Assembly: GCF_002252705.1 (NCBI RefSeq) | Contig: NZ_NQLA01000006.1 | Span: 1-64,000, forward strand | Origin: Vulcanococcus limneticus LL | GTDB taxonomy: Bacteria > Cyanobacteriota > Cyanobacteriia > PCC-6307 > Cyanobiaceae | Length of the DNA stretch: 64,000 nt | Direction of reading: 5' to 3' | Notes under the pieces: model-generated | Databases searched by the model: none | Seen by the model: the letters and a program-made list of their open reading frames with translations, nothing else | Told to the model about the DNA's origin: nothing | Shown here: piece by piece, positions 43,157 to 61,052 of the stretch | Layout: each line of letters starts with the position of its first letter | Numbering within the stretch: the stretch's first letter is position 1 | Made by a program: the position numbers and the translations under genes

Positions 43157-44476
<1,320 letters not shown>

Positions 44477-44616
44477 CTATGGGTCGCCCCTGCCCGGCCT
44501 TTGGTGATCGTTGGCACGAAATTGGCCTTCAGGCCCGGACGCTCAGGGCCGTGGCGGTTCGGGCGCTGGCGTCACTGGCCAGAATGGAAGGCTGCGCCGC
44601 CCGGCTGACCTCCTCC

Positions 44617-45018
44617 ATGCGTTTGCTCCACACCATGCTGCGGGTCGGGGACCTGGAGCGCTCGCTGGCCTTCTACACGGAGGTGCTGGGCATGCGGCTG
44701 CTGCGCCGCAAGGACTATCCCGGCGGCCGCTACACCCTGGCCTTTGTGGGCTACGGGGAGGAGAGCGACCACACGGTGCTGGAGCTCACCCACAACTGGG
44801 ACACCAGCCACTACGAGATCGGCACCGGCTATGGCCACATCGCCCTGGGAGTCGACGACATCGTGACCACCTGTGAGGCCATCCGCGCCAAGGGCGGTCG
44901 GGTGGTGCGCGAGCCCGGGCCGAAGCAGCACGGCACCACGGTGATCGCCTTCGCGGAGGATCCCGACGGCTACAAGGTGGAACTGATCGAACTCGCCTCG
45001 AGGGCCCATGGGGCCTGA
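44617..45018 (+). CDS. gloA: Lactoylglutathione lyase (glyoxalase I)
   Basis: GloA isomerises the methylglyoxal-glutathione hemithioacetal to lactoylglutathione. The 133-residue vicinal-oxygen-chelate protein has the four metal ligands in the expected places: H in [19 protein letters not shown] in [12 protein letters not shown] in [11 protein letters not shown] and E in GYKVELIE. The ATG at 44617 gives the standard start. It overlaps the clpB2 start by 11 nt. Confidence 0.94.
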
Positions 45019-47923
45019 TTTCGGCGGCGCTGGCGTCCCCCCGGGCGCCGTCCCGACCTCCGGCGCTGGCCCGGAGCGCGGCTCCCTCACCAGCACGCCC
45101 GAGCGCTTCAGCGACGCGGCCTGGGAGCTGCTGCTGGCCAGCCAGGACGCGGCCCGCCGCTGGCGCCACGGCCAGATGGATGTGGAGCACCTGCTGCAGG
45201 TTCTGCTCTCCGAACCGCCCTACGCCGCCTGGATCGATCCCCTGCCGCTGGACACCGGCCGGCTGCTGGATCGCCTCGAGGATTTCTGTGCCGATCTGCC
45301 CTCGGGCAGCGGCCGTGAGCTGTTCATCGGCGATGCGCTTGAAGATCTTCTGGAGGACGCCGATCGGCGCCGTGCCGCCTGGGGCTCGCGCCTGCTCGAT
45401 GTGCCCCACCTGCTCCTGGCCCTGCTGGATGAGCCGCGGATCGGGGCGGCCCTGCTGGCCGAGGCGGGGCTGAGCGAGGAGATCCTGCTGCGCCAGCTGC
45501 GGCCTGGGGCTGCCGGCTCCGGCGGCCGGCCGGCCACCGGTCCTCCGGCGCCGTCGCTGCCGGCCGTGCCGCGCCGCCCCGAGCGGCCCCAGGCCGCCGA
45601 GGTCTTTCCCCCTGCGGCCAGTCCGGCTGGGGGGCGATCCCCCAGGTCCGTGGCGTCGCAGCCCCGTCCGGCGGGGTCGGGCGGGGCCAGCGAGGCCAGC
45701 GGTGAGGCGGGTGACGGCGGACTCACCCTGGAGCGCGAACCCGGCGCCCTGGAGCAGTTCGGCCGTGACCTCACCGCCGCGGCCCGCGCCGGTCAGCTCG
45801 ATCCGGTGATCGGCCGCGATACCGAGATCCGTCGCCTGATCCAGGTGCTCTCGCGCCGGGGCAAGAACAACCCGGTGCTGATCGGCGAGCCCGGCGTCGG
45901 CAAGACCGCCATCGCCGAGCTGCTGGCCCAGCGGATCGTGGCCGGTGAGGTGCCCGATTCGCTGCGGGGTCAGCGCCTGATCGCCCTGGACATGGGCGCC
46001 CTGATCGCCGGCGCCAAGTTCCGCGGCCAGTTCGAGGAGCGCCTGCGCAGCGTGCTCCAGGAGGTGGCCGACGCCGATGCCACCCCTGGGGAGGCCGGCG
46101 TGATCCTGTTCATCGACGAGCTGCACGCGGTGGTGAGCAGCGAGCGCTCCGGCAGCGACGCCGGCAGCATCCTCAAGCCGGCCCTGGCCCGGGGCGAACT
46201 GCGCTGCATCGGCGCCACCACCCCCGAGGAATACAGCCGCAGCGTGGAGAAGGACCCGGCCCTCAACCGCCGCTTCCAGCAGGTGCTGATCAAGGAGCCT
46301 GGCATCGAGGAGAGCACCCTGATCCTGCGGGGCCTCAAGGAGCGCTACGAGCTGCACCACGGCGTGGCGATCGCCGACGGGGCCGTGGTGGCCGCCAGCC
46401 GCCTGGCCGACCGCTACATCGCCGACCGCTGCCTGCCCGATTCGGCCATCGACCTGATCGATGAGGCCGCTGCCCAGCTGAAGATGGAGGTGACCTCCAA
46501 GCCGCGGCTGGTGGAGGAGGCAGAAAGCGAGCTGCGCCGGGTGGAGCTGGCCCTGCTGGCCGCCGAGACGGCACCGTTGGCCGAGCGCACCCAGCTGCAG
46601 GAGCAGCGGCGCGTCGCCGCCGAGCGGCTGCAGGAGCTGCAGCAGCGCTGGCAGGGCGAGCGCGAACAGCTGGCCGAGCTGCGCCAGCTGCTGGCCGAGG
46701 ACGAGGCCCTGCGCCAGGCCATTGCCGAGGCCGAGCGCGATGGCGACTTGGAGGAGGCCGCCCGGCTGCAGTACGACCAACTGCATGGGGTGCAGCAGCG
46801 ACGCAGCGAGCTGGAGGCCCTGCTCCAGGCCGACCAGGCCAGTGGCCAGTCGCTGCTGCGGGAGCAGGTGGAGGCCGGTGACATCGCCGACGTGGTGGCC
46901 CGCTGGACCGGCATCCCGGTGCAGCGGCTGCTGGCCGGCGATCGCCAGAAGCTGCTGGAGCTGGAGGCCCGGTTGGGCGAGCGGGTGATCGGCCAGCCCG
47001 AGGCCGTGGCGGCCGTGGCCGCGGCGATCCGCCGGGCCCGGGCCGGCATGAAGGATCCCCGCCGGCCCGTGGGCTCGTTCCTGTTCCTGGGCCCTACCGG
47101 TGTGGGCAAGACCGAGCTGGCCAAGGCCCTGGCCGCCTCCCTGTTCGACGAGGAGGAGGCCCTGGTGCGGCTCGACATGAGCGAGTTCATGGAGCGCAAC
47201 GCCGTGGCCCGGCTGTTGGGGGCCCCCCCCGGCTACGTGGGCTACGAGGAGGGCGGCCAGCTCACCGAGGCGGTGCGGCGGCGCCCCTATGCGGTGCTGC
47301 TGCTCGATGAGGTGGAGAAGGCCCACCCGGATGTGTTCAACGTGCTGCTGCAGGTGCTCGACGACGGCCGCCTCACCGATTCCCAGGGCCGCACCGTGGA
47401 CTTCCGCCACACCGTGGTGGTGATGACCAGCAACCTGGCCAGCCGCGCCATCCTCGACAGCGCCCGGGATCAGGCCGGCGTCGGGGGGCCGGGGGCGGAG
47501 GTTGAGTCCGAGGCCCGCGAGGCGACCTTGGCCGCAGCGATCGAGCGGGCCCTGGCCAGCCATTTCCGCCCCGAGTTCCTCAACCGGATCGACGAGGTGA
47601 TCCGCTTCCGGCCCCTGCAGCCGGCCGATCTGGAGCGGATCGTGCGTCTGCAACTGGCGGAGCTGGCGCTGCTGCTGCGGGAGCAGGGCCTGGAGCTGGA
47701 GGTCGACCCGCCGGTGCTGCCGCTGCTGGCCCGCCAGGGCTACGAGCCGGAGTACGGCGCCCGGCCGTTGCGGCGCCTGCTGCGCCGGGCGATCGAGAAC
47801 CCGCTGGCCACCGAGCTGCTGGAGGAGCACTTCAGCGGCGCCCGCGGCGTGCGGGTCAGTGTCGCCGGTGAGGGCAGTGCGGGTTCCGGCGCCGACCGGC
47901 TGGCCTTCACCCCGCTCCCCTGA
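45008..47923 (+). CDS. clpB: ClpB-type Hsp100 disaggregase (ClpB2)
   Basis: A 971-residue two-ATPase Hsp100. The N-domain (residues 30-165) is divergent. NBD1 has [17 protein letters not shown], Walker [10 protein letters not shown] (about 293) and Walker [12 protein letters not shown]. The middle coiled-coil domain spans about 500-617. NBD2 has Walker [10 protein letters not shown] (about 695), Walker [13 protein letters not shown] and the arginine-finger region FLNRIDEVI. The linker between N-domain and NBD1 (about 165-238) is a Pro/Gly/Ala/Ser-rich expansion, far longer than normal. This resembles the second cyanobacterial ClpB, which is not the classic heat-inducible one. Confidence 0.9.
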
Positions 47924-47948
47924 ACGGCTGGCCAGCCCAATTCTCCTG

Positions 47949-47980
47949 CCCTACCGGCCCCGGAACGACGTCCGGTAGGG
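47949..47980 (+). terminator. Hairpin between clpB2 and secE
   Basis: CCCTACCGG (47949-47957) and CCGGTAGGG (47972-47980) form a perfect 9-bp stem with a 14-nt loop, 25 bp after the clpB2 stop. TGACTGTTTG follows. It may end clpB2 transcription. It also overlaps a possible -10 element (TAGGGT, 47976-47981) for the secE operon. Confidence 0.45.
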
Positions 47981-48079
47981 TGACTGTTTGCCGGTCCGCG
48001 CCGCCCCAGTGCCGCGCGATCACCTGGGGACCCCAGCTCCCCCAGTCGACCGACATCCCCCAGCCCCCCGGACCCGACG

Positions 48080-48334
48080 GTGACATCCACTGATACGGCT
48101 GATACGGCGCCCGGCACCACGGCGCCCAGCGGCGATCCGGTGAGCCCCACCGAGACGCCGAAGACGGGCTTCGTGGCCACCAGCCTCGAGGAGCTGCGCA
48201 AGGTGGTCTGGCCCAGTCGCCAGCAGCTGTTCAGCGAATCCCTGGCGGTGATCCTGATGGTGACCCTCTCGGCCTTCGCCATTGCCGCCGTGGATCGCTT
48301 CTACAGCTGGGCCAATACCCAGGTCTTCCGCTGA
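48080..48334 (+). CDS. secE: Preprotein translocase subunit SecE
   Basis: An 84-residue single-membrane-segment SecE: a hydrophilic Thr/Pro-rich N-terminus, the conserved amphipathic SLEELRKVVWPSRQQLFSES, and one membrane segment (about 53-72). The start is GTG at 48080. It begins the secE-nusG-rplK-rplA block as in most bacteria. Confidence 0.95.
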   Translation: MTSTDTADTAPGTTAPSGDPVSPTETPKTGFVATSLEELRKVVWPSRQQLFSESLAVILMVTLSAFAIAAVDRFYSWANTQVFR

Positions 48335-48386
48335 GCCGGGCCCGCCCGTCCCGCCGTTCTCGTCCTCTTTCCCGCCGCCCCCGCCT

Positions 48387-49061
48387 GTGTCCGACGTCGA
48401 CCTGACCACCACCGATCTCGCCTCCACTGACGCCGGGACCGTGCTGGATCTGGCCGGCGCCGCGGCCCCCGAGGCCGGTGAGGCGGCGCCCCGGGCCCAG
48501 GTGGCTCGCTGGTACGCCGTGCAGGTGGCCTCCAGCTGTGAGAAGAAGGTGAAGGCGACCCTCGAGCAGCGCGCCGTGACCCTGGGCGTGGACAACCGCA
48601 TCCTCGAGATCGAGATCCCCCAGACCCCAGCCGTCAAGATCAAGAAGGACGGCAGCCGCCAGGGCACCGAGGAGAAGGTGTTTCCCGGCTACGTGCTGGT
48701 GCGCATGGTTCTCGACGAGGACACGATGATGGCCGTGCGCAGCACCCCGAACGTGATCAACTTCGTGGGCGCCGAAGACCGGCGCGCCACCGGCAAGGCC
48801 CGTGGCCACATCAAGCCCCGCCCCCTCAGCCGTCAGGAAGTCGACCGCATCTTCAAGCGCGCCGCCGAGAAGAAGCCCGTGGTCAAGGTGGATCTGGCCG
48901 AGGGCGATCAGATCCTGGTCACCGCCGGACCGTTCAAGGACTTCCAGGGCGAGGTGATCGAGGTGTCGGGCGAGCGCAGCAAGCTCAAGGCCCTGCTCTC
49001 GATCTTCGGCCGGGAGACCCCGGTGGAACTCGAGTTCTCCCAGATCAGCAAACAGAGCTGA
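48387..49061 (+). CDS. nusG: Transcription termination/antitermination protein NusG
   Basis: A 224-residue NusG. The acidic Ala-rich N-terminal extension (about 45 residues) is followed by the NGN domain RWYAVQVASSCEKKVKATLEQRA, KVFPGYVLVRMVLDEDTM and FVGAEDRR. The KOW domain follows (EGDQILVTAGPFKDFQGEVIEV). It couples RNA polymerase to the ribosome. The start is GTG at 48387, 52 bp after secE. Confidence 0.96.
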   Translation: MSDVDLTTTDLASTDAGTVLDLAGAAAPEAGEAAPRAQVARWYAVQVASSCEKKVKATLEQRAVTLGVDNRILEIEIPQTPAVKIKKDGSRQGTEEKVFPGYVLVRMVLDEDTMMAVRSTPNVINFVGAEDRRATGKARGHIKPRPLSRQEVDRIFKRAAEKKPVVKVDLAEGDQILVTAGPFKDFQGEVIEVSGERSKLKALLSIFGRETPVELEFSQISKQS

Positions 49062-49068
49062 TCGCCAC

Positions 49069-49118
49069 GGCCGCCTCCCTGCGGAGGGCGGCCCCAGGTG
49101 ATCCCCCGCCCGCGGGGG
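49069..49118 (+). promoter_or_regulatory. Two GC-rich hairpins in the rplK leader
   Basis: GGCCGCCTCC (49069-49078) pairs with GGAGGGCGGCC (49083-49093, one bulge). CCCCCGC (49103-49109) pairs with GCGGGGG (49112-49118). They lie between nusG and rplK; attenuation or mRNA processing is possible. No typical L1-binding mimic was recognised. Confidence 0.4.
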
Positions 49119-49196
49119 AGCGCCGCACCGCCGTTGCCCTAGGTTCGGCGATCCGCAGATTCCCCTCGCGGGGAAACCCGTTCCGCAGCCCAGCCG

Positions 49197-49622
49197 ATGG
49201 CCAAAAAAGTCGTAGCCGTGATCAAGCTGGCCCTCCAGGCCGGCAAAGCCAACCCCGCGCCGCCGGTGGGCCCCGCCCTCGGTCAGCACGGCGTCAACAT
49301 CATGGCGTTCTGCAAGGAGTACAACGCCCGCACGCAGGAGAAGGCCGGGTACGTGATCCCGGTGGAGATCTCGGTCTTCGAAGACCGCAGCTTCACCTTC
49401 ATCACCAAGACCCCGCCCGCCTCCGTGCTGATCTCCAAGGCGGCCGGCATCGAGAAAGGTGCCGCGACCTCCTCCAAGGGCGGTGTCGGCGCCATCAGCC
49501 GCGCCCAGCTCGAGGAGATCGCCAAGACCAAGCTGCCCGACCTCAACACCTCCAACCTCGAGGCGGCCCAGCGCATCATCGAAGGCACCGCCCGCAACAT
49601 GGGCGTCGCCATCACCGACTGA
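49197..49622 (+). CDS. rplK: 50S ribosomal protein uL11
   Basis: A 141-residue L11. The N-terminal domain has [36 protein letters not shown], and the rRNA-binding C-terminal domain has [19 protein letters not shown] and [15 protein letters not shown]11 forms the GTPase-associated centre with 23S rRNA. Confidence 0.98.
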
Positions 49623-49726
49623 GTCCCATCGGCTGTCCGGCCATCCGCCCGGCCTGCCGCTGAGTTCCGTCCCCATCCACCCCACCGGGGGAGACCGATA
49701 CCGGTCGCCCGCACCCCACTCCTGTC

Positions 49727-50434
49727 ATGCCCAAAATTTCCAAGCGCTTCAACGCCCTCACCAAGACGGTCGAAGACCGCACCTACGCTCCGCTGGAAGC
49801 GGTGGAACTGGTGAAGGCCAACGCCAACGCCAAGTTCGATGAGACCCTCGAGGCCCACGCGCGCCTCGGCATCGATCCCAAGTACACCGACCAGCAGCTG
49901 CGCACCACCGTGGCTCTGCCCCACGGCACCGGCCAGACCATCCGCATTGCCGTGATCGCCCGCGGCGAGAAGGTGGCCGAGGCCAAGGCCGCCGGCGCCG
50001 ACCTGGCGGGTGACGACGAGCTGGTGGAGATCATCGCCAAGGGCGAGATGAACTTCGACCTGCTGATCGCCACCCCGGACATGATGCCCAAGGTGGCCAA
50101 GCTGGGCCGGGTGCTCGGTCCCCGCGGCCTGATGCCGAACCCCAAGGCCGGCACCGTGACCACCGATCTCGCGGGCGCCATCAACGAGTTCAAGGCCGGC
50201 AAACTCGAGTTCCGCGCCGACCGCACCGGCATCGTGCACGTGCGCTTCGGCAAGGCCAGCTTCGATGCCGCCAAGCTGCTCGATAACCTCAAGGCCCTGC
50301 AGGAGACCATCGACCGCAACAAGCCCAGCGGTGCCAAGGGTCGCTACTGGAAGAGCCTCTACATCACCTCCACCATGGGCCCCTCCGTGGAGGTGGATGT
50401 TGCGGCCCTGCAGGACATCAAGCAGGAGTCCTGA
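49727..50434 (+). CDS. rplA: 50S ribosomal protein uL1
   Basis: A 235-residue L1, the stalk protein and, in other bacteria, autogenous repressor of rplKA. Motifs include [61 protein letters not shown] and [18 protein letters not shown]. It ends 4 bp before the convergent GGDEF-EAL gene. Normally rplJ would follow directly. Confidence 0.98.
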
Positions 50435-50438
50435 GGGC

Positions 50439-52781
50439 CTAGTCCTGGCTGGTTTGCTGCCAGCGGGGATGCAACAGGGAGCCTGGGCCCGTGGGTCCAG
50501 GCTCCCTCGGCAGGCTGAACAGGTAGCCCTGGAAGCGGTCGCAGCCGTAGTCGCGCAAGCGGTGCCACTGCTCCTCCGTTTCGATTCCTTCGGCAACAAC
50601 ATCCATCCCCAGCGACTGGCACAGACTCACAACTGAGCGAATGACGGCGTCGTCGTTGGGGTTGGAGAGAAACCTCTGCACGTAGCTCTTGTCGATCTTC
50701 ACTTCCTTGAATGGCAGTTGGCGTAGATAGCTGATCGAGGAGTAGCCCGTGCCGAAATCGTCGAGGGAGAATTCCACGCCATGATCGCGTAGGTGGTTCA
50801 TGCGTTCGGTGACTTTGTCGAGATCGTCCATTATTGTCGCCTCTGTGATTTCTAGCTTGAGTCGCAGGCTCTCGATGCCTGCATCCTGCAATTGCTGCAG
50901 GGTGCGTTCCACGAATTGTGGATGTAGAAACTGGTTGGGGCTCAGGTTCACGGAGATACGGAAGTCTGCTGGAAGTTCCGCGCTCCACTGCCGCAGCACA
51001 GCGCCCACGCGCATCAGGCTCCACTCGCCGATCGTGTGAATCAGGCCTGAATCCTCGGCGATGGCAATGAAGTCATCGGGTTTCACTACCGGGCCCCCCG
51101 AGCGAGGCCAGCGCAACAGCGCCTCGGCCCCGCTGAGAATCCCCGCGCCATTGACGATGCCCTGGAGGTGCAGGGCCAGCTCCTGTTGCTCGATGGAGGT
51201 GCGCAGCTCCTGCTCCAGCCGCACTCGACGGGTGACCTGTTCCTGCATGTGCGTGTTGAACACCCGCACCGTTGCCCGTCCTGCTCCCTTGGACTCGTAG
51301 AGCGCCACATCGGCATGTTGCATCAGGTCCGAGGCCGTGGCGCTGCGGTGGTCGATCACGGCCACCCCGATGCTGGCGCTGTGATGGCTGATGCCCACAT
51401 CCAACTGGTAGGGCTGGCTCAGCTGGTCAAGGATCTCCTCGGCCACCCCCCGGGCCCTCGCCTGCGCAGTCTGCAGGTCCTGGCCGAGGGCATGGAGCAC
51501 CACCATGAATTCATCGCCGCCCAGCCGTGCCACCAGATCGTTGTTGCGCAGGCGCTGGCGCAGGCGCTGGCCGACGATGCGCAACATCTGATCACCGGCG
51601 GCATGGCCGTAGGTGTCGTTGAGAGTCTTGAAACCGTCCAGATCGATCATCACCAGAGCCATCCGCTGCCCTGTGGTCTGGAAGCTGGCGATCGCTCCCG
51701 GCAGCTGATCCATCAGGCCGCGGCGGTTGGGTAGTTCGGTGAGGTCGTCGTAGAAGGCGAGGCGGTGCACGTGCGCCTCATGCCGCTTGCGCTCGGTGAG
51801 GTCCAGGATCGTGCCTGAGAACCGGACCGCCTGGCCCTGGTCATCGTGGCTCACGGTGCCCCGCACCAGCACCGGCAGGGCGCGGCCATCCTTGCGGCAC
51901 AGTTCCATCTCCTGTTCGAGTGTGTCAGCGCCTTGCCCCTCCAGGGCCTGTCTCAGGTTCCGTTCGAAGCGGTCGCGATCCGAGGGCTGGATGCATTCCA
52001 GCCAGAAACCCTCGCGCAGCTGCGGTTCACGGCTCTCGCCGCCGAGCATGGCGATCCAGCGGCTCGACACCAGGCAGAGATTGCTGCTGAGATCCCAGTC
52101 CCACCAGCCGTCGTTGGTGCCCTGCAGCACACGCAGCAGACGTTCCTCGGAATCCTTGAGCTCCTGCAGCCGCAGGTCGAGCAGATCGTGGAAGCGGCGT
52201 ATCTCGAGGTGGGCGGCGAAGCGTTCGGCCACCTGGGTGAGCACCGCCAGCGTCTCGTTGCTGATGGGGTCAAACATGCCGGACAGGGTGACGGTGTTGG
52301 CCGCCATCACCACACCGATGCATTGGTTCTCGCCGTTGATGCAGCGGCAGATCAGCACATCGCAGAGGTCGCTCTGGGCAAGCAGCGGGATCTCTGCGGC
52401 ATCGGCCCGGATGGTTTCGTGGGTCTCGTGAGCCAGTAGCCGATCGAGTAGCTCCAGGCTGAGATGCCGCCAGTCCTTGCCCTCGAGGTCAAGGCCGCAG
52501 GCGGAATGGTCAACCACCTGGCGCCCACTCAGCTCCCAGACAACACCAATGGCCATATCCAGCACATCGGGGATGGTCTCCGCGAAGACCTGAAGGCCAT
52601 GCCCCCCCTGCTGCAGGGAGAGCAGCGTATTGGAGATCCGGTTGAGTCGGGTGAGTTGGGCGATCTGCCGGTCGAAGCTGGTGCGTACGGCGATCAGCTC
52701 CTGTTGCAGGCGGATGTAATCCGTGCTGTGGAAAGCCCGCGGTCCCCTGGCCTGGGGTGACGGCAGTGATTCGGACACCAT
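50439..52781 (-). CDS. GAF-like/PAS GGDEF-EAL cyclic di-GMP turnover protein
   Basis: A 780-residue soluble protein. Residues 35-200 form a GAF-like sensor region, and residues about 215-330 a PAS/PAC domain (NDGWWDWDLSSN, ending FSGTILDLTERKRHE). The GGDEF domain carries an intact RLGGDEFMVV (about residue 420). The EAL domain has intact GAEALLRW (about 552), ISVNLSPNQF, LKLEITEAT, FSLDDFGTGYSSISYL, VKIDKSYV and VVAEGIETEEQ. Both cyclase and phosphodiesterase residues are present, so either activity is possible. The start overlaps the FIST gene stop (ATGA). Confidence 0.92.
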   Translation of the reverse strand: MVSESLPSPQARGPRAFHSTDYIRLQQELIAVRTSFDRQIAQLTRLNRISNTLLSLQQGGHGLQVFAETIPDVLDMAIGVVWELSGRQVVDHSACGLDLEGKDWRHLSLELLDRLLAHETHETIRADAAEIPLLAQSDLCDVLICRCINGENQCIGVVMAANTVTLSGMFDPISNETLAVLTQVAERFAAHLEIRRFHDLLDLRLQELKDSEERLLRVLQGTNDGWWDWDLSSNLCLVSSRWIAMLGGESREPQLREGFWLECIQPSDRDRFERNLRQALEGQGADTLEQEMELCRKDGRALPVLVRGTVSHDDQGQAVRFSGTILDLTERKRHEAHVHRLAFYDDLTELPNRRGLMDQLPGAIASFQTTGQRMALVMIDLDGFKTLNDTYGHAAGDQMLRIVGQRLRQRLRNNDLVARLGGDEFMVVLHALGQDLQTAQARARGVAEEILDQLSQPYQLDVGISHHSASIGVAVIDHRSATASDLMQHADVALYESKGAGRATVRVFNTHMQEQVTRRVRLEQELRTSIEQQELALHLQGIVNGAGILSGAEALLRWPRSGGPVVKPDDFIAIAEDSGLIHTIGEWSLMRVGAVLRQWSAELPADFRISVNLSPNQFLHPQFVERTLQQLQDAGIESLRLKLEITEATIMDDLDKVTERMNHLRDHGVEFSLDDFGTGYSSISYLRQLPFKEVKIDKSYVQRFLSNPNDDAVIRSVVSLCQSLGMDVVAEGIETEEQWHRLRDYGCDRFQGYLFSLPREPGPTGPGSLLHPRWQQTSQD

Positions 52782-53998
52782 CAGCTGCCGTCGGCACCGT
52801 TGCGGCGGTAGAGTGCCGCCAGGGCCGTGGTGTAGTTGTGATAGGCGTTGCGGCCGCCCAGTCGAGCGTACTCGCCGAATCCATACATGCCGAGCCACGG
52901 TGGCACTGCTCCTTCGTGGGTGAAGGGCTCCTGCATGAGGTGAACCAGCTCTTCCTTCATCACCCGGGCGAACAGGCGACGGCCCCGTGCCAGGCAGTCG
53001 GCATGGAAGACGGCCACAGGTGTGCGCCCTGGCTGGCGTGAGTCCATCGCCTGCAACATCCGCTCCATGTCGCTGAAGATCCGCTCCTCATCGCGCACGG
53101 TGAGCCAGAGGTCGGTCCCCTCCGCGCAGGCTGTGGCGTAGATGATCTCACCCTGCTCCGAGTGGTGAGTCACCGCGCGAAGGATGTGGTCGTTGCCGTA
53201 TTCCGCGGCCAGGGCGACAGGCAGAGCTTCGGCCAGAGCACCGATCGGGATCGTGTCGGCCTCCCGGGCTTCAGGCGGCAGGCCCAGGCGTTCGAGGAAC
53301 ACCGGCCAGGCCGCTTGGCCGTTCAGCTCGATGATGCGGTTGCCTTCGCGGCGGGTGACCCGCAGGGGCGTCCCCACGGCCACGAAACCGTGACTGGCCT
53401 GGGTCTCGACCTCCAGGCTGGGATCCCAGATGCCCACCGCGAAGGCGGCGTGCTTGTAGAGCTGCCCGTCGATGCACTGGAAGGTGGCCACGCCCTGCAT
53501 CTGGTCGGATGAGGTGGCTCCGAAGATCACCACATCGGGCCCGAGCACCGACTCGATGCCGGCGATCAGTTGGTCGTTGGCGATATCGATGCCGGAGGCG
53601 AGCAGGTAGAGCATGTGCACCGGCCGAGGCGCTGCCAGCAGGCCCTCGGCCAGCTCGACCCCCTTGGCGTAGGAGCTGGAGCCGAACAGGCCGTCGACGT
53701 GGCTGATGCAGGCTCCCTCGCCATGGATGGCCATCAGGGCGATGTCGTGCATGGACTCACCCGGACCATCCCGTCCGACCACGCCGGCGCAGGACGCCCC
53801 CAGCACCCGGGTGCCGGGGCATTCCGCCTGAATCGCCGCCGACAGTTTGGCGAGGTCGTGGCCGACGGCGGCATTGAACAGCACCAGGTCGGGGCTGCCC
53901 CGGCGCTCGATCCCCGCCAGTTCCAGGGCCTCAAGCACCGCCCGCTGGGTATTCACGGAGCGGGTGTTGCCGGAGCAGAAGCTAAGCATGGCGCCCAT
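52781..53998 (-). CDS. FIST N- and C-domain sensor protein
   Basis: A 405-residue protein with an N-terminal FIST domain (VLFNAAVGHDLAKLSAAIQ, VLGASCAGVVGRDGPGESMHDIALMAI, VIFGATSSDQMQG) and a FIST-C domain (IPIGALAEALPVALAAEYGNDHIL to VAVFHADCLARGRRLFAR). FIST domains are proposed small-ligand sensors (possibly amino acids) found alongside signalling outputs. The only partner here is the coupled GGDEF-EAL protein, so it probably controls it. Start ATG 53998, alternative ATG 53989. It diverges from rplJ. Confidence 0.9.
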   Translation of the reverse strand: MGAMLSFCSGNTRSVNTQRAVLEALELAGIERRGSPDLVLFNAAVGHDLAKLSAAIQAECPGTRVLGASCAGVVGRDGPGESMHDIALMAIHGEGACISHVDGLFGSSSYAKGVELAEGLLAAPRPVHMLYLLASGIDIANDQLIAGIESVLGPDVVIFGATSSDQMQGVATFQCIDGQLYKHAAFAVGIWDPSLEVETQASHGFVAVGTPLRVTRREGNRIIELNGQAAWPVFLERLGLPPEAREADTIPIGALAEALPVALAAEYGNDHILRAVTHHSEQGEIIYATACAEGTDLWLTVRDEERIFSDMERMLQAMDSRQPGRTPVAVFHADCLARGRRLFARVMKEELVHLMQEPFTHEGAVPPWLGMYGFGEYARLGGRNAYHNYTTALAALYRRNGADGS

Positions 53999-54015
53999 CG
54001 GCGACAGTGAGGCTC

Positions 54016-54043
54016 AACCTAAATTGGCTGGCCGTGGCCAGCC
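54016..54043 (-). promoter_or_regulatory. FIST-gene promoter with operator-like palindrome
   Basis: On the minus strand TAGGTT (54021-54016) is a plausible -10. Directly upstream, at the -35 region, is GGCTGGCC-GT-GGCCAGCC (54026-54043), a perfect 8+8 inverted repeat. The position suits a repressor or activator dimer controlling the FIST-GGDEF-EAL pair. Confidence 0.45.
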
Positions 54044-54107
54044 TACGGATAGGGGGAATGGCCATGGGGTAGCTTAAGGGACTGGATTCGTCCAGAAGGG
54101 CACGCGC

Positions 54108-54240
54108 CCGACCCCAGACAGCAGGTCAGTCCAGCGGGATTTCCCTCCGGGCCGTAAACCCTGCCGAGGTGCACGCGAGAGCTTCATTCCCTCCGGCGGA
54201 GCAGCCCTGCGGCTTCCCTGCTGGAACGGTTCCCGAGCAT
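54108..54240 (+). ncRNA. L10 leader (rplJ 5' UTR autoregulatory RNA)
   Basis: AGACAGCAGG (54116-54125) pairs through GCAGG with CCTGC in CCTGCCGAGGT (54160-54170), with a GC-rich arm between. The AGACAGCAGG / CCTGCCGAGG pair is the conserved kink-turn region of L10 leaders, bound by L10(L12)4 to repress rplJL. A downstream GC-rich arm (about 54189-54225) could be the regulatory hairpin. The boundaries are approximate. Confidence 0.7.
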
Positions 54241-54357
54241 GCAGCGGCCTCGAGCCTGAGCAGCGGCAGTCTGACTGCCCCAGCGGCCCCTTCCCAGGGG
54301 CGATCAGGTGTCCAGGGCCGCGTACCCCGCTTGTTCCCCCGATCCGTTCCACTTCCT

Positions 54358-54891
54358 ATGGGCCGCACGCTGGAGAGCAAGCAACAGATCGTCGAAGAGC
54401 TCAAGGGGCTCCTCGGTGAGGCCGAACTGGCGCTGGTCCTTGATTTCAAGGGCCTGTCCATCAAGGAGATGTCTGATCTGCGGACCCGTCTGCAGGCCAG
54501 CAACGGTGTGTGCAAGGTGACCAAAAACACCTTGATGCGCCGCGCCATTGATGGCAACGACGCCTGGTCGAATCTCGATTCCCTGCTCACTGGCACCAAC
54601 GCCTTCGTCCTGGTCAAGGGCGATATCGGCGCTGCCGTGAAGGCCGTCCAGTCCTTCCAGAAGGACACGAAGAAGTCTGAGGTGAAGGGTGGCCTTTTCG
54701 AAGGTCAGATCCTCTCCCAGTCCGACATCAAGGCCATCGGGGACCTGCCCTCCAAGGAGGTGCTGCTGGCCCAGATCGCCGGTGCGATCAACGCCGTGGC
54801 CACCAAGGTTGCTGTGGGCATCAACGAGATTCCCTCCGGTCTTGCCCGGGCGCTCAAGCAGCACGCCGATGGCGAAGGCAGCGCCAACTGA
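54358..54891 (+). CDS. rplJ: 50S ribosomal protein uL10
   Basis: A 177-residue L10. [36 protein letters not shown] and [12 protein letters not shown] are typical, and the C-terminal helices that bind L7/L12 dimers include [14 protein letters not shown] and GLARALKQ. It has its own leader and probably its own promoter, separated from rplA by the inserted signalling genes. Confidence 0.97.
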
Positions 54892-54965
54892 GGCCTGCCC
54901 CACCCGTCGAGCCGCCCGAGCTCAACCGATCACTGTCCATACAGATCTGTTGCTGATTCCCAACC

Positions 54966-55349
54966 ATGTCCGCTACCACTGACCAGATCCTCGAGCAGCT
55001 GAAGACCCTCTCCCTGCTGGAAGCTTCCGAGCTCGTCAAGCAGATCGAAGAGGCCTTTGGTGTGTCCGCCGCCGCCTCCGCTGGCGTCGTCGTGGCCGCC
55101 GCTCCCGCCGCTGCCGCCGAGGCCGCTGAGGAGAAGACCGAATTCGACGCCATCCTCGATGGTTTCGATGCCGCCGCCAAGATCAAGGTGCTGAAGGCCG
55201 TCCGCGAGGCCACCGGCCTGGGTCTGGGCGAAGCCAAGGCCCTGGTGGAAGGTGCCCCCACCCCCATCAAGGAAGGCATCTCCAAGGCCGATGCCGAAGC
55301 CATCAAGAAGTCCGTGGAAGAGGCCGGCGGCAAGGTCACCATCAAGTGA
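54966..55349 (+). CDS. rplL: 50S ribosomal protein bL12 (L7/L12)
   Basis: A 127-residue L7/L12: an N-terminal dimerisation helix ([22 protein letters not shown]), an Ala-rich hinge, and the factor-binding C-terminal domain ([23 protein letters not shown]). Cotranscribed with rplJ. Confidence 0.98.
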
Positions 55350-55420
55350 TCGCCGCGGAGTGGCACCAGGCCCAAGGGGCCCGGCGCCACCCCAGCCCTT
55401 CCGGACCCTGGTCCCACCGC

Positions 55421-55447
55421 AGCCGGCCCCACTGGGGCCGGCTTTTT
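55421..55447 (+). terminator. Intrinsic terminator of rplJL
   Basis: AGCCGGCCCC (55421-55430), loop ACT, GGGGCCGGCT (55434-55443), followed by a T-run to 55447. It is a 10-bp perfect stem. Confidence 0.85.
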
Positions 55448-55508
55448 GCTGACAACGCTCCCAAGGGAGAGCGACGCCAGGGGCAGCGATGCCCAAGGAT
55501 AGGCAGGC

Positions 55509-55536
55509 AAAAAAAAGCCCCGCCGAAGGCAGGGCT
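55509..55536 (-). terminator. Intrinsic terminator on the minus strand
   Basis: On the minus strand AGCCCTGCC, loop TTC, GGCGGGGCT is followed by a run of seven to eight T. It ends the DUF3747 transcript (as a 187-nt 3' UTR) or a small RNA lying between. Confidence 0.85.
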
Positions 55537-55578
55537 CTGAGCCGGAACTCTTCTGGGAGTCTGTCCTCGTTTCGACCC

Positions 55579-55628
55579 CGGAAGTGGGTTCCGCACTCCT
55601 CACACGCTTAGACCATAACCCGGTCTGA
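55579..55628 (+). ncRNA. Possible Yfr1-like small RNA
   Basis: A hairpin CGGAA-GTGGG-TTCCG (55579-55593) is followed by ACTCCTCACAC (55595-55605) and a second hairpin TTAGACC-ATAACCC-GGTCTGA (55608-55628). An unpaired ACUCCUCACAC between two stem-loops is the hallmark of the cyanobacterial riboregulator Yfr1. Against this, the 3' hairpin lacks the U-tail, no promoter is evident, and Yfr1 usually lies beside guaB and trxA. Confidence 0.3.
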
Positions 55629-55722
55629 AGGGAGGGGGAAGGGGGAGGAGGGCCGCTGCTGCAACTGTCCCGCTTCGCTGGCCTGCAGGGGGTGGCTGGC
55701 CGCGCAGCGGCGCCCCGGCCTC

Positions 55723-56469
55723 TCACTCCCGGAAGGGGATCACCTGCAGCGGCACGGGACCGCTGGCCAGGGCCCTGTCCGAGAAGTCGCCAGCCCCAGG
55801 TAGGCCGGGAGCCGTGGCGGGACCCAGGCCGGCCCGGCGGCTGGCGCCGAAGCGACCGTCGCCCGGGCGGCCGTCACCGTTGCTGCCATCACTGCCGCTG
55901 CTGGCGGCGATCAGCTGACCCAGGGGCGTGGCGTTGGCGAAGTACACGTGATTGAGGGTCTGGCGGCCGTAGACGCGGCGCTGCAGCTCCCAGCCCGGCT
56001 CCAGCGTCAGGCCCACGAAACCGTCACGATCGCGCAGGGTCACGGTTCCCCGGCCGACCAGCAGCTCGGTGGGGTTCTCCGGAGTCATGGCCAGCAGCTG
56101 CAGGGTGCTGCCCTGCTGGCTGAGCCGCAGCCGGTAGGTGGTGCCCAGATCCTGCTGGCCCACCCGTAGCGAATAGCCGTTGCTGTCCAGATAGCGGCTG
56201 CAGATGCCCGTGTAGTCGAAGCGGTTCAGGGCCGGATCGATCAGGCCATCGGCCCGCGGTTCCCAGCAGCGTGGCGTGGCGGCGATCTGCTCGAGAACCA
56301 GCAGGTTCCAGTCGCTGCGGCCGACCGGCCTGGCCAGCACGGCGAAGCGGGCGCTGTCGATCGCACGGCTGTCGAACAGGGCGGCGGCTACGCCCCGATC
56401 CTGGAGCGTGAGGGCAGTCCCGGCGGCGAGGGCCGAGAGCCCGAGCCACGGGAGGTAGGTTCGCTGCAT
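55723..56469 (-). CDS. DUF3747 domain secreted protein
   Basis: A 248-residue protein with a signal peptide ([16 protein letters not shown]). The cyanobacterial DUF3747 signature follows: [56 protein letters not shown] and [15 protein letters not shown]. Two conserved cysteines could form a disulfide. The C-terminal 50 residues are Gly/Ser/Ala-rich. Likely extracytoplasmic; function unknown. It is divergent from rnhA. Confidence 0.85.
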
Positions 56470-56519
56470 GGGTCAGGCTCCAAGGCGTCTCATTGTCAAT
56501 GGTTTGTACCGGATTTCGG

Positions 56520-57335
56520 ATGGTCAGCCCAGTGGCCACTGACCAGTCCGCCGAGCCGGCCCAGGCCCCGCGGGTGGTGGCGGCCGCCTGTGACGGCGCC
56601 TGTAGTGGCAACCCCGGCCCCGGCGGTTGGGGCTGCCTGCTGCGATTCGAAGACGGCACGGTGCAGGAGTTCGGCGGTGCTGACCCGGCCACCACCAACA
56701 ACCGCATGGAGCTCACCGCGGCCCTGACGGTGCTCCAGAAGCTCAAGCAGCTGCCGCTCCACCCCGACCTGGCGATCCGTACGGACAGCAAATATCTGAT
56801 CGACGGCTTCAGCAAGTGGATGCCGGGCTGGAAGCGCAAGGGCTGGCGCACGGCATCCGGCGGCCCCGTGCTCAACCGCGACCTCTGGGAAGCTCTGGAT
56901 GCGGCCCGGCTTCCAGCCGTGCCCTTCCGCTACGTGAGGGGCCACAGCGGCGACCCCGACAACGACCGCTGCGACGCCATCGCGGTGGCCTTTTCCAAAG
57001 GGGGGCGGCCGACCCTGGCCAAGACCAGTTCCTCCACAACCACGCCGGCCGCCGAGCCCGCCTTGCCTGAGGCGGCGGAGCCAGCCCCGCCCGCCCTGCA
57101 GCAGCTGCTGACGCGGCTGGAGCTGGCAGACCGGCTGGCGGCCGGCGGCTATGGCCTCAGCCTGGTGGAGCTGGCCCAGCTGGTGCAGATGCCGCTGCGG
57201 ACCCTGGAGGCCCGCCAGGGCCCCTGGCCCTGGCGCGACTGGCGGGTGCTGCCCGCCGGCGAGGGCCGCTGGCGCCTGGAGCGTGAGGCGGCAGGATCGG
57301 GGTGCGCGACCAGCGAGGACCTGGCCCATGGCTGA
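56520..57335 (+). CDS. rnhA: Ribonuclease HI with C-terminal extension
   Basis: RNase HI cleaves RNA in RNA-DNA hybrids. All catalytic residues are present: D in [19 protein letters not shown] in [13 protein letters not shown] in [11 protein letters not shown], and H/D in [16 protein letters not shown]. After residue 165 there is an extra region of about 105 residues: a Pro/Ala linker, then a small helical module ([20 protein letters not shown] to WRLERE) not found in E. coli RNase HI. Start ATG 56520; ATG 56499 and TTG 56493 are alternatives. It overlaps pyrD by 8 nt. Confidence 0.92.
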
Positions 57336-58485
57336 GGGCACCGGCAGCCTCTACCGCCGCTTCGTGGGCCCCCTGCTGGCCCAGGACGAGGGCGCCGACG
57401 CCGAGCAGCTCAGCCAGCTGACGTTGACGCTGCTGGGCCAGGCCTCGCTGCGGCGCGGCTGGCCGCTGGTGGCCGGCAGCCTGGCGGGCCTCGGCGCCGA
57501 GCTGCAGCGGCACGACCTGCGCCTGGAGCAGACCCTGTTCGGCTGTCGCTTCCCCAACCCCGTGGGGCTGGCGGCGGGCTTCGATAAGAGCGCCGTGGCG
57601 GCCGGCATCTGGCACCTGTTCGGCTTCGGCTTTGCCGAGCTGGGCACGGTCACCTGGCACGCCCAGCCCGGCAACCCCCGGCCCCGCCTGTTCCGCCTGG
57701 CGGCCGAGCGGGCGGCCCTGAACCGCATGGGCTTCAACAACGGCGGTGCCGTGGCGGCCCGCCGCACCCTGGAGCGCCAGGGCCTGCCCCCGGCTGGGCA
57801 GCGCCCGGCTGTGCTGGGGATCAACTTCGGCAAGTCGAAGATCACGCCGCTGGAGCTCGCCGCCGACGACTACGCCTCCTCCCTGGAGCTGCTGGCGCCG
57901 CTGGCGGACTATGCGGTGATCAACGTGAGTTCGCCGAACACGCCGGGGCTGCGGGAGCTGCAGGACGAGACCCAGCTGCGGCGCCTGGTGGAGCGGCTGC
58001 GGCGGTTGCCGGCCTGCCCGCCGCTGCTGGTGAAGATCGCGCCGGATCTGGAGGACGACGCCATCGACACCATCGCCCGCCTGGCCTACGAGGAGGGGCT
58101 GGCCGGGGTGGTTGCCGTGAACACCAGCCTCAACCGCCTGGGTCTGGAATCCCGCCGCCTGGTCCAGACCGGCCGCACGCTGGCCGAGGAGGCCGGTGGC
58201 CTCAGTGGGGCGCCGCTGCGGGCCAGGGCCCTGGAGGTGATCCGTCGCCTCCGGGCCACGGCCGGCCCCTCCCTGCCCCTGATCGGCGTGGGCGGCATCG
58301 ACTCGCCCGAGGTGGCCTGGGAGCGGATCGTGGCCGGCGCCTCGCTGGTTCAGCTCTACACCGGCTGGATCTACCGGGGCCCAGAGCTGGTGCCGGCGAT
58401 CCTGGAGGGCCTGCTGGGCCAGCTCGATCAGCACGGCTTCCGCAGCATCGGCGAGGCGGTGGGCAGCGGAGCGCCTTGGCGCTGA
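57328..58485 (+). CDS. pyrD: Dihydroorotate dehydrogenase (quinone), class 2
   Basis: Oxidises dihydroorotate to orotate with quinone as acceptor at the membrane. The 385-residue class 2 enzyme has the N-terminal helical tunnel region, then [64 protein letters not shown] (catalytic serine), VKIAPDL and the FMN-phosphate loop [16 protein letters not shown]. Coupled to rnhA. Confidence 0.95.
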
Positions 58486-58515
58486 GCGGCCGGGCCCGAT
58501 ACCCTGCGCACACTT

Positions 58516-59520
58516 GTGTGGGGTGAGGCCTTGGTCCTCTCCGGAGTCCAGGAGCAGTTGCAGGAGCGGCTGACCCCCCTGAGGTCGTGGCTGTTCCCAT
58601 CGATGGCCTATCTGGAGCTGGAGGACCGCTCGATCACCGTGCTGGCCGGCCAGCGCAGCGGCGGCGCCTTCCAGGCGGATGTGCTGGAGCGGGTGCAGCT
58701 GCCGGTGGGCCTGTGTGATCGGGGGGAGCCGCTACGCCAGGAGGCGGTGGGGGATTTCATCGGCGATCTGCTGATCGAGCGCGACCTCAACGGGGTCCAC
58801 GTGCGGGCCTGTCTGCCGGCGGCCGCCAGCCAGTGGAAGCTGGTGCAGTGGCCGGGGGGGGAGTGGCCGCAGGATCCCGATGAGCTGCTGATCCGTCGGG
58901 GGGACGATTCGGGTTTCAGCTTGCCGATCCAGGCGGCCTACACCCGCGTGATCCCGCTCGACACCGACCTCACCGGCGGTGCCCCCACCTCCCTGGTGGT
59001 GGCGGTGCGTCAGTCGGTGCTGCAGGCCTGGATCGAGACCCTGGCCATCGCCGGGGTGACGCTGGACGGGCTGGAGGCCGCCCAGGTCTGCGAGCTGCGG
59101 GCCCTGGAGCCGCTGCTGCGCCAGGCGCCGGCCAGTCAGCTGCTGGCGGTGCTCAGCCTGCGGGCCGAGGCCGGCCGGCTGCTGCTGGTGCGCCGCGGCC
59201 TCCCGCTCTACGAGCACGCCTACCCGGCCGATAGCGGCGCCGTGGAGCTGGCGGAGCAGCTGCGCCGCAGCATCGACTTCACCCTGCAGCAGGACTCCTC
59301 CGCCACCGGCGTGCGCCTGCTGGTGCATGGCACCAAGGCCTCGGGCGCCTTGATCGAGCAGCTGGCCAGCCTGCTGCCCTGGCCGGTGGAACTGCTGGAC
59401 CCCGTGGCGGAGGGCTGGATCCGCCTGAAGCCGGACGCCGAGCCGGATGATCCCGCCGCACCGACCGGCCTGGAGCTGCTGCGGATCACCGGCCTGGCCC
59501 TGGCGGAGGCGGCGCGATGA
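58516..59520 (+). CDS. pilM: Type IV pilus assembly protein PilM-like
   Basis: A 334-residue actin-like-fold protein, recognised mainly by context and by short segments (AYLELEDRSITVLAG at the start, FIGDLLIERDLNGVHVRACLPA, and IETLAIAGVTLDGLEAAQVCELRAL). PilM is the cytoplasmic ring component that binds the N-terminus of PilN. The start is GTG 58516; ATG 58603 would be shorter. It overlaps pilN by 4 nt and begins the pilM-pilN-pilO-pilQ order. Confidence 0.78.
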   Translation: MWGEALVLSGVQEQLQERLTPLRSWLFPSMAYLELEDRSITVLAGQRSGGAFQADVLERVQLPVGLCDRGEPLRQEAVGDFIGDLLIERDLNGVHVRACLPAAASQWKLVQWPGGEWPQDPDELLIRRGDDSGFSLPIQAAYTRVIPLDTDLTGGAPTSLVVAVRQSVLQAWIETLAIAGVTLDGLEAAQVCELRALEPLLRQAPASQLLAVLSLRAEAGRLLLVRRGLPLYEHAYPADSGAVELAEQLRRSIDFTLQQDSSATGVRLLVHGTKASGALIEQLASLLPWPVELLDPVAEGWIRLKPDAEPDDPAAPTGLELLRITGLALAEAAR

Positions 59521-60254
59521 GCAGCACCTTCAAGCTGGATCGCCTCGACCTGCTGCGCCAGCGCCGCCTCGAGCTGGGGCTGCCCCCCGAGGCTCCTCCC
59601 CTGGTGGGCGCCCGTCAGCTGGTGCTGGTGGGGGGAGTGATCGGTCTCGCGGTGGCGGCCTCCGCGGCGGGGGTGTGGCTGTTGCTACAGGCCCGCCAGG
59701 TGTATGTGGAGGGCAAGATCCGCGAGCTCGGCTTGGTGCCCGTCCAGCTGAAGGACCTGGAGCAGCGGGTTCAGGCGGCCCAGGCCCAGCTCACGAAGAT
59801 CAACACCAGCAACGAAGGGCTGGCCAAGGGGCTGGTGGCCGTGTCGTCCGGTTCGGCCCTGCTGACCCAGCTCTCCCAGATCACGCCCGAGCAGGTGCAG
59901 CTGACCGAAGCCACGGTGGCGGGTGCACCGTCGTCGGATCAGACGCTGACGCTCAAGGGCACGGCTGCCGACCCGCAGGCCTTCCGCCGCATCAATGCCC
60001 TCCAATTGCTGCTGGCCTATTCCCCCCTGTTCAAGCCCGATGGGGTGGTCCTGAAGAAGGCCGTGCGCGAACCAGCGGCAGCGGCGGCCGATCCCCAGGC
60101 CACCGCGCCGAGCGTCGGTCCGGTGGCGTTTGATCTCACGTCCCAGTTCAGTACCCTGCCGGCGACGGCCCAGCTGCGGCAGTTGCGGCGGCTGGGGGCC
60201 GATGGCATGGCCCGCCGCCTGGAGACCCTGCAGAAGGAGGGATTGCTGCGATGA
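59517..60254 (+). CDS. pilN: Type IV pilus inner-membrane protein PilN-like
   Basis: A 245-residue bitopic protein: a short cytoplasmic N-terminus (LDLLRQRRLELGLP), one membrane segment (about 38-63), a coiled-coil stretch (LGLVPVQLKDLEQRVQAAQA), and a periplasmic alpha/beta domain. Layout and position fit PilN, which pairs with PilO and binds PilM. It overlaps both neighbours by 4 nt. Confidence 0.78.
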   Translation: MSSTFKLDRLDLLRQRRLELGLPPEAPPLVGARQLVLVGGVIGLAVAASAAGVWLLLQARQVYVEGKIRELGLVPVQLKDLEQRVQAAQAQLTKINTSNEGLAKGLVAVSSGSALLTQLSQITPEQVQLTEATVAGAPSSDQTLTLKGTAADPQAFRRINALQLLLAYSPLFKPDGVVLKKAVREPAAAAADPQATAPSVGPVAFDLTSQFSTLPATAQLRQLRRLGADGMARRLETLQKEGLLR

Positions 60255-60982
60255 CGAACCTGCAGGTCGGTGTTGAGGCAGGGGGTGCGATCCAGAGACT
60301 GATCACGCGGGAACGGCTGCTGGTCGGCGCCCCGATCCTGGTGGGAGGCCTTGCGGCCCTGGGCGTTCTGGCTGTGGCCGCCTGGCCGGCCTGGCAGAAG
60401 CTGCAGCAGACAGAACAGCAGTTGCGATCCCTGCAGGCCCAGGCCGCCCAGCTGCCCCTGCTGCGCGCTCAGATCCGGCAGACCGAGGCGAGGCAGGCCA
60501 AGGCGGAGCTGAGTCAGGCCCGCATCCTGCATCTGATCGCCGGCAGCGGCGACATCTCCACGTTCATGGCCCAGCTCGGTGCCGAGGCGATCCGCAGCGG
60601 TGTGCAGCTCGACAGCTATGAGCCGGTGGAACAGGCAGCACCAGCAGCCCCTGCCCCGCCCCCTGCAACGCCCGCTGTAACCCCACCACCGGCCGGTGCG
60701 GCCCAGGGGGCTCAGCAGCCGCCCGCAGCACCTGAGGATCCGCTCTGCCGAGCGTCCCTCAAGCTCAAACCGACCTCCCGGTTGATCAGCGCCAAGGCCC
60801 CGACGCCCCAGCTGCTCGACTTCCTGCGCCGTCTGGAACGGCTCAGCCTGCTGGTGGTGCAGCGCGACCTGAGCCTCAAGCGCCCCGCCGCTCCCGCCCC
60901 ACAGCCCGGAACTCCGCCGGTGCCGGGCAGCACCGAGCTGCGGCTGAATCTGACCCTCTGCTCCAGGGCCACCGGGGGCTGA
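60251..60982 (+). CDS. pilO: Type IV pilus inner-membrane protein PilO-like
   Basis: A 243-residue bitopic protein with one membrane segment (about residues 28-47), a coiled coil (LQQTEQQLRSLQAQAAQLPLL) and a periplasmic domain containing a Pro/Ala-rich loop (about 135-160). Fits PilO, the partner of PilN. pilP is not present, as in other cyanobacteria. The stop codon lies inside a strong hairpin (60963-61010). Confidence 0.78.
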   Translation: MTNLQVGVEAGGAIQRLITRERLLVGAPILVGGLAALGVLAVAAWPAWQKLQQTEQQLRSLQAQAAQLPLLRAQIRQTEARQAKAELSQARILHLIAGSGDISTFMAQLGAEAIRSGVQLDSYEPVEQAAPAAPAPPPATPAVTPPPAGAAQGAQQPPAAPEDPLCRASLKLKPTSRLISAKAPTPQLLDFLRRLERLSLLVVQRDLSLKRPAAPAPQPGTPPVPGSTELRLNLTLCSRATGG

Positions 60983-61010
60983 GACTGGACTCAGCCCCCG
61001 GTGGCCCTGG
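60963..61010 (+). terminator. 21-bp perfect hairpin between pilO and pilQ
   Basis: Arms 60963-60983 and 60990-61010 are perfectly complementary over 21 bp, with the loop ACTGGA, followed by TTTCAG. It includes the pilO stop codon. It could attenuate or end transcription before pilQ, or protect the pilMNO mRNA. Confidence 0.75.
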
Positions 61011-61052
61011 TTTCAGTGAAGGTCAGTCGTTACCATCCGGGCGCATGGATGG

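Follow-up and report, generated by a model that had tools for sequence, protein, structure and literature searches.

Introduction

Two FIST proteins, NosP and CdpA, act on cyclic di-GMP enzymes (PMC8846402, PMC12570481, PMC11237717). The same publications present the nitric-oxide-sensing NosP, which works with NahK/NarR or NosK/NosR, as a stand-alone FIST_N-FIST_C protein whose gene lies beside that of the signalling protein it controls and whose pathway ends in cyclic di-GMP (PMC8846402, PMC11237717, PMC12570481); CdpA of Vibrio cholerae combines a FIST-FIST_C input with a heme-inhibited EAL output, and in Shewanella woodyi an H-NOX protein is a separate sensor controlling a diguanylate cyclase-phosphodiesterase of the GGDEF-EAL type (both PMC8846402).

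The locus discussed here comes from Vulcanococcus limneticus LL and lies within a stretch of 64,000 nucleotides, which as a whole is referred to below as the window. It shares with these systems the pairing of a sensor with a cyclic di-GMP output, but differs from NosP in having a GGDEF-EAL protein as the direct partner, no kinase standing between the two, and in a sequence far below the NosP cut-off, from CdpA in being made of two overlapping genes rather than one polypeptide, and from the H-NOX arrangement in its sensor family. A direct literature search returned no described FIST system in small unicellular cyanobacteria. The cassette belongs to a known general type, and its position suggests a preferred site of insertion rather than a switch tied to growth.

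Organization of the gene pair

Between rplA and rplJ, two open reading frames on the minus strand encode a FIST sensor protein and a PAS-GGDEF-EAL protein. The features of the locus are the following, in window coordinates:

49727 to 50434, plus strand: rplA, the left border
50439 to 52781, minus strand: PAS-GGDEF-EAL protein, 780 aa (ATG at 52781, stop at 50439), from Pfam and motifs
50476 to 50507, no strand assigned: strong hairpin with a 14-15 bp stem and no T-run, in codons past the EAL domain, at a distance of 42-73 bp from the rplA stop
52779 to 52783, minus strand: TGATG stop/start overlap of the FIST and EAL genes, from the sequence
52781 to 53998, minus strand: FIST (FIST_N + FIST_C) sensor protein, 405 aa, from Pfam, an AlphaFold2 (AF2) model and a PDB match
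53999 to 54069, no strand assigned: divergent stretch from the FIST start to the rplJ -10 region, containing a palindrome at 54026-54043
54070 to 54075, plus strand: candidate rplJ -10 element TAGCTT, found by eye (relatives have, for example, TATGTT or TATGAT)
54082 to 54357, plus strand: conserved, intact rplJ (L10) leader; the alignment with relatives resumes near 54081
54358 to 54891, plus strand: rplJ, the right border

The original prediction, made from the sequence alone, that opposite-strand FIST and GGDEF-EAL genes split rplA from rplJ is correct, and by open reading frame and Pfam reading the insert consists of these two genes only. Its account of the borders agrees with the coordinates as well: the EAL gene stop is convergent with the rplA stop and 4 bp from it, and the FIST gene diverges from the rplJ leader, with 359 bp, the conserved leader included, between its start and that of rplJ at 54358. 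The ATGA overlap that it described has to be amended, the sequence being TGATG, with one base common to both genes; an ATGA overlap is present in the orthologous pair of genome G046, and the orthologous pair of G091 has no overlap.

The FIST protein

Pfam assigns both halves of the sensor protein, FIST (PF08495) at 1.1e-31 (110.6 bits, cut-off 23.2) and FIST_C (PF10442) at 3e-13 (50.5 bits, cut-off 28.5). An AF2 model built on a 9-row alignment (pLDDT 83.4, pTM 0.85) has as its closest PDB match FBXO22 (Foldseek E 7.1e-11; Z 22.5 over 264 residues, rmsd 3.5), a eukaryotic FIST and F-box protein whose common fold does not imply a shared function, followed by chorismatases and cyclic amide hydrolases at Z 12.7-16.4. 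The fold matches of this predicted structure confirm the family and say nothing on the ligand. A solved FIST structure was also sought by sequence search, which gave only chance matches to OTUB2 (E 2.4-2.5).

His203, Cys335 and His387 are invariant across the 9-row alignment. On the NosP model NF041558 the protein scores 44.7 bits, below the equivalog cut-off of 450, and two further FIST proteins from cyanobacteria score higher (97.2 and 64.3); the orthologues in G046 and Phaeovibrio score 37.5 and 47.4. By its sequence, the window protein is at most NosP-like.

The GGDEF-EAL partner

Pfam recognizes EAL (5.5e-72), GGDEF (1.8e-44) and PAS_3 (3.2e-12) in the 780-residue partner. Of the GAF/PAS input expected for it, the PAS part stands and a GAF domain is not shown, Pfam matching nothing in residues 1-217 even with E allowed to reach 10. 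A GAF-like N-terminus common to the FIST partners was considered and rejected, given a BLASTP E of 2.1, a weak profile match and a poor AF2 model of the N-terminus of the window protein (pLDDT 52.5 from 3 rows).

The sequence contains GGDEF, an RxxD five residues ahead of it, EAL, DDFGTGYSS and the other EAL-domain motifs sought, as anticipated for an enzyme with intact cyclase and phosphodiesterase motifs; the catalytic motifs of both domains are present. The partner is likely to be a cyclic di-GMP enzyme, and it would be one of many such proteins in the window genome, which has 17 EAL matches in addition to 3 FIST matches.

Sensor-output co-occurrence

Strong-match FIST loci were gathered from the genus (25 genomes) and the family (151 genomes) at E<=1e-15 and from the phylum (386 genomes) at E<=1e-20, phylum loci between 1e-20 and 1e-15 being left out; the set also draws on a pattern-based pass through a genome collection, among close relatives only, with one confirmed locus. 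At all 15 of these loci, window included, a signalling gene on the same strand lies downstream of FIST, and it encodes a GGDEF-EAL protein in nine (the window genome G000, G046, G091, G019, G020, G022, G068, G146 and G085), a histidine kinase in four (Phaeovibrio, G342, G429 and G228) and a SpoIIE-type phosphatase in two (G221 and G181). The partner at loci L007 and L018 was located by a tblastn match about 0.43 kb past FIST, without an open reading frame table. FIST and partner genes overlap in the window, in G046 and at L017. At L102 and L106, the SpoIIE-type phosphatase that follows FIST has a coiled-coil-like start.

Co-occurrence in 15/15 loci and overlaps in several lineages support the predicted sensor-output pair, and the putative coupling of FIST to its downstream protein is, at the level of gene arrangement, well supported. 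That FIST and GGDEF-EAL genes became neighbours through joint arrival, with no interaction between their products, is very hard to credit. Such an explanation would draw on the weak similarity of the partners' N-termini, which give no BLASTP match and, in a profile comparison of EAL-type with kinase/phosphatase-type partners, a weak match only (probability 36%, E 4e-4, 61 coiled-coil columns), but order and strand stay constant in 15/15 loci despite the swaps of output, and the NosP systems provide precedents.

No EAL-protein match was found near 11 FIST loci of lower score (L008-L014, L020-L023, with E from 4.7e-7 to 4.5e-4; flanks of up to 1.5 kb), so that, set against the 15 strong loci, the signalling link is confined to one FIST branch. 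A separate cyanobacterial FIST protein of about 440 aa is encoded at these loci, and at L002 (G000:C24), without a GGDEF-EAL partner; L002, a further FIST gene in the window genome, has no signalling partner, and the gene beside it and beside several of the weaker loci probably encodes a tRNA methyltransferase.

Distribution and origin of the pair

A FIST orthologue is absent from the 24 congeners, 13 of which have a completeness of 90% or more and a contamination of 5% or less, the best match having 28% identity. In the search of the 151 family genomes, orthologues occur only in genus g23, in G046 and G091 at 68 and 72% identity, and three genomes, window included, carry the pair. The EAL orthologues in g23 have 43-46% identity, FIST being the better conserved of the two; the Phaeovibrio FIST orthologue has 48%. 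Neither g23 pair lies at rplA: in G046, rplA-rplJ occupies 688-692 kb of a contig on which the pair is found at 259 kb, about 429 kb away, and in G091 the two are on different contigs, the pair lying one open reading frame downstream of a gene that we take to be infB-like.

Lateral gain is the likeliest origin of the pair, with a GC difference that is small (EAL gene 0.633, FIST 0.677, whole window 0.693). The plasmid search yielded 12 records at 20-24% identity and no close plasmid copy; no tRNA lies in window positions 44000-62000, and no direct repeat of at least 14 nt joining both insert borders was found. Since neither tRNA nor border repeat was found and the GC difference is small, retention with many losses has to be weighed, that is, a pair ancestral in the family and lost from the other sampled genomes. 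Its presence in both sampled g23 genomes and in the window genome would fit, as would an old occupancy of the gap, to which the related ABC transporters of five genera described below may point; the count of 0/24 congeners and 3/151 family genomes (window included) and the different place in g23 make it unlikely.

The rplA-rplJ gap as an insertion site

In the 143 family genomes that carry rplA and rplJ on a single contig, window included, the median gap is 252 bp, and it exceeds 450 bp in 18, 900 bp in 17 and 1000 bp in 13 (G156, G008 and G003, with the genes on different contigs, are left out, and second matches were dropped for G120 and G139 in the case of rplA and for G156 in that of rplJ). 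The insertion put forward by the original prediction is not universal in close relatives: where rplA and rplJ share a contig, as they do in 16 other congeners, the gap is always 272-349 bp and holds no pair. In two further congeners (G003 and G008) the contigs are split and rplA is followed by other genes, and in six one or both genes are missing from the assembly.

Control gaps were taken at 49 loci (best matches and chosen genomes, out of 149 genomes with rplA), three of which are cut by contig ends; they measure 50-223 bp for rplK-rplA and at most 181 bp for nusG-rplK, with 0/46 above 450 bp. The rplJ-rplL gap is 35-84 bp in 40 loci, some genomes being counted twice. Outside the family but within the class, 33 of the 34 genomes measured have gaps of 207-524 bp and the genes lie apart in one; the phylum genomes found numbered 88, and 53 of other classes, in which the genes are often apart, were left out. 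Fisher tests, with kinship ignored, give p 0.045 against the other families, which is marginal, and 0.014 against rplK-rplA. On contig G224:C1 the gene block is split, rplJ lying about 574 kb from rplA.

The contents of the gap were assigned by Pfam in eight genomes, window excluded (those named are G141, G053, G134, G167, G068, G008 and G091), and read without Pfam in G029, G112 and G152, G127 and G162 being left out. Amino-acid ABC transporters occupy the gap in g23, g45, g47, g51 and G003, with a binding protein-permease fusion convergent with rplA and, where read, an adjoining ATPase gene (L063-L067, L090-L092); eight of these proteins, across five genera, have pairwise identities of 49-94%. 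Other contents are a GDSL hydrolase (G134), a 1688-aa DUF4347 protein (G167), an open reading frame with an AMP-binding C-terminal domain (G053), an AMP-binding match below the cut-off (G068), frames left without assignment by Pfam (G141 and G053) and, after rplA in G008, a symporter-binding-protein fusion.

The ABC transporter cases may stem from few events, in which case the independent insertions are fewer than 17. From its lengths and contents, the gap looks like a recurrent insertion site with unrelated cargo in this family, and the suggested link of cyclic di-GMP to the making of ribosomes is not upheld, the g23 pairs lying away from rplA and unrelated genes filling the same gap elsewhere. 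A literature search by title and opening lines of the abstract gave no evident paper on such a site, which is a fresher observation than the cassette, whose general type is known.

Transcription at the borders

Empty congener gaps follow one order, namely rplA terminator, rplJ promoter region and conserved leader, and a strict scan places an intrinsic terminator after rplA in 13/15 of them. In the window, the strict scan found none in the 266 bases after rplA, nor did a separate scan of the plus strand at 50200-54500, for which reason antisense readthrough from rplA into the EAL gene is possible; this is the one route that we see by which the place could matter.

A growth-coupled switch might be built on this, in which, after loss of the rplA terminator, heavy rplKA transcription would cross the EAL gene in antisense and interfere with its mRNA, so that fast growth would lower the cyclic di-GMP enzyme. 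The convergent genes, 4 bp apart, and the terminators of the empty congener gaps are in line with it, but we judge it improbable on four grounds. The stretch 50435-50525 is very stably folded (-56.3 kcal/mol, z -3.9, 0/200 shuffles), and transcripts may be terminated or protected by its hairpin, even without a T-run; the strict scan also missed a terminator in 2/15 congeners and found none at L050, L057 and L058, the empty gaps outside the genus, which makes a missing hit weak evidence; the g23 pairs lie away from ribosomal genes; and the ABC-permease loci L063-L067 and L092 have the same convergent layout, again with no terminator found by scan. We likewise judge improbable the compound idea that small lateral cassettes repeatedly land in the rplA-rplJ break and that, in this strain, terminator loss has put the cyclic di-GMP enzyme under antisense control by ribosomal transcription; if the antisense reading were true, second-messenger output would fall as growth rises.

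On the rplJ side, a sigma-70 promoter scan of 50200-54500 found 0, and the sole terminator call of the scan of that interval is on the minus strand at 54043-54026, at the palindrome GGCTGGCC-N2-GGCCAGCC (54026-54043) of the divergent FIST-rplJ gap, which is possibly an operator. The rplJ leader of the window and of the relatives' gaps is strongly conserved and matches no leader family in Rfam, whether at gathering or at permissive thresholds; scanned permissively, 53950-54400 gave a single chance match, and none to an L10 leader. The sole Rfam match in the window is a Cyano-1 RNA (RF01701) at 55541-55609 on the minus strand (47 bits), about 190 bp past rplL.

Proposed explanation and implications

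We consider it probable that the locus is a laterally moved FIST/GGDEF-EAL cassette in which FIST regulates its partner and whose position in the rplA-rplJ break need not have any functional meaning. This explanation takes gene anatomy, motifs, co-occurrence, empty sites and varied cargo as they were observed. Binding, ligand, switch direction and lateral transfer are its conditional parts: FIST would be a stand-alone cytosolic ligand sensor, NosP-like, for heme/NO or another small molecule; it would bind its co-translated GGDEF-EAL partner in the N-terminal part and so tip that enzyme towards synthesis or breakdown of cyclic di-GMP; and the cassette would have entered the transcription break that separates rplA from the rplJ promoter, where genes have settled repeatedly in the family. 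Counted against it are the low NosP score, the weak similarity of the partners' N-termini, the unequal conservation in g23 (FIST 68-72%, partner 43-46%), the G091 genes without overlap and the L002 FIST gene without a signalling partner.

The pair would represent a compact two-gene FIST/cyclic di-GMP system in small unicellular cyanobacteria, and the FIST partners, whose outputs vary (cyclase-phosphodiesterase, kinase and phosphatase), form a set in which the FIST-contacting region may be sought. For the family, the variable rplA-rplJ gap suggests that an insertion point is tolerated even in a core ribosomal gene block.
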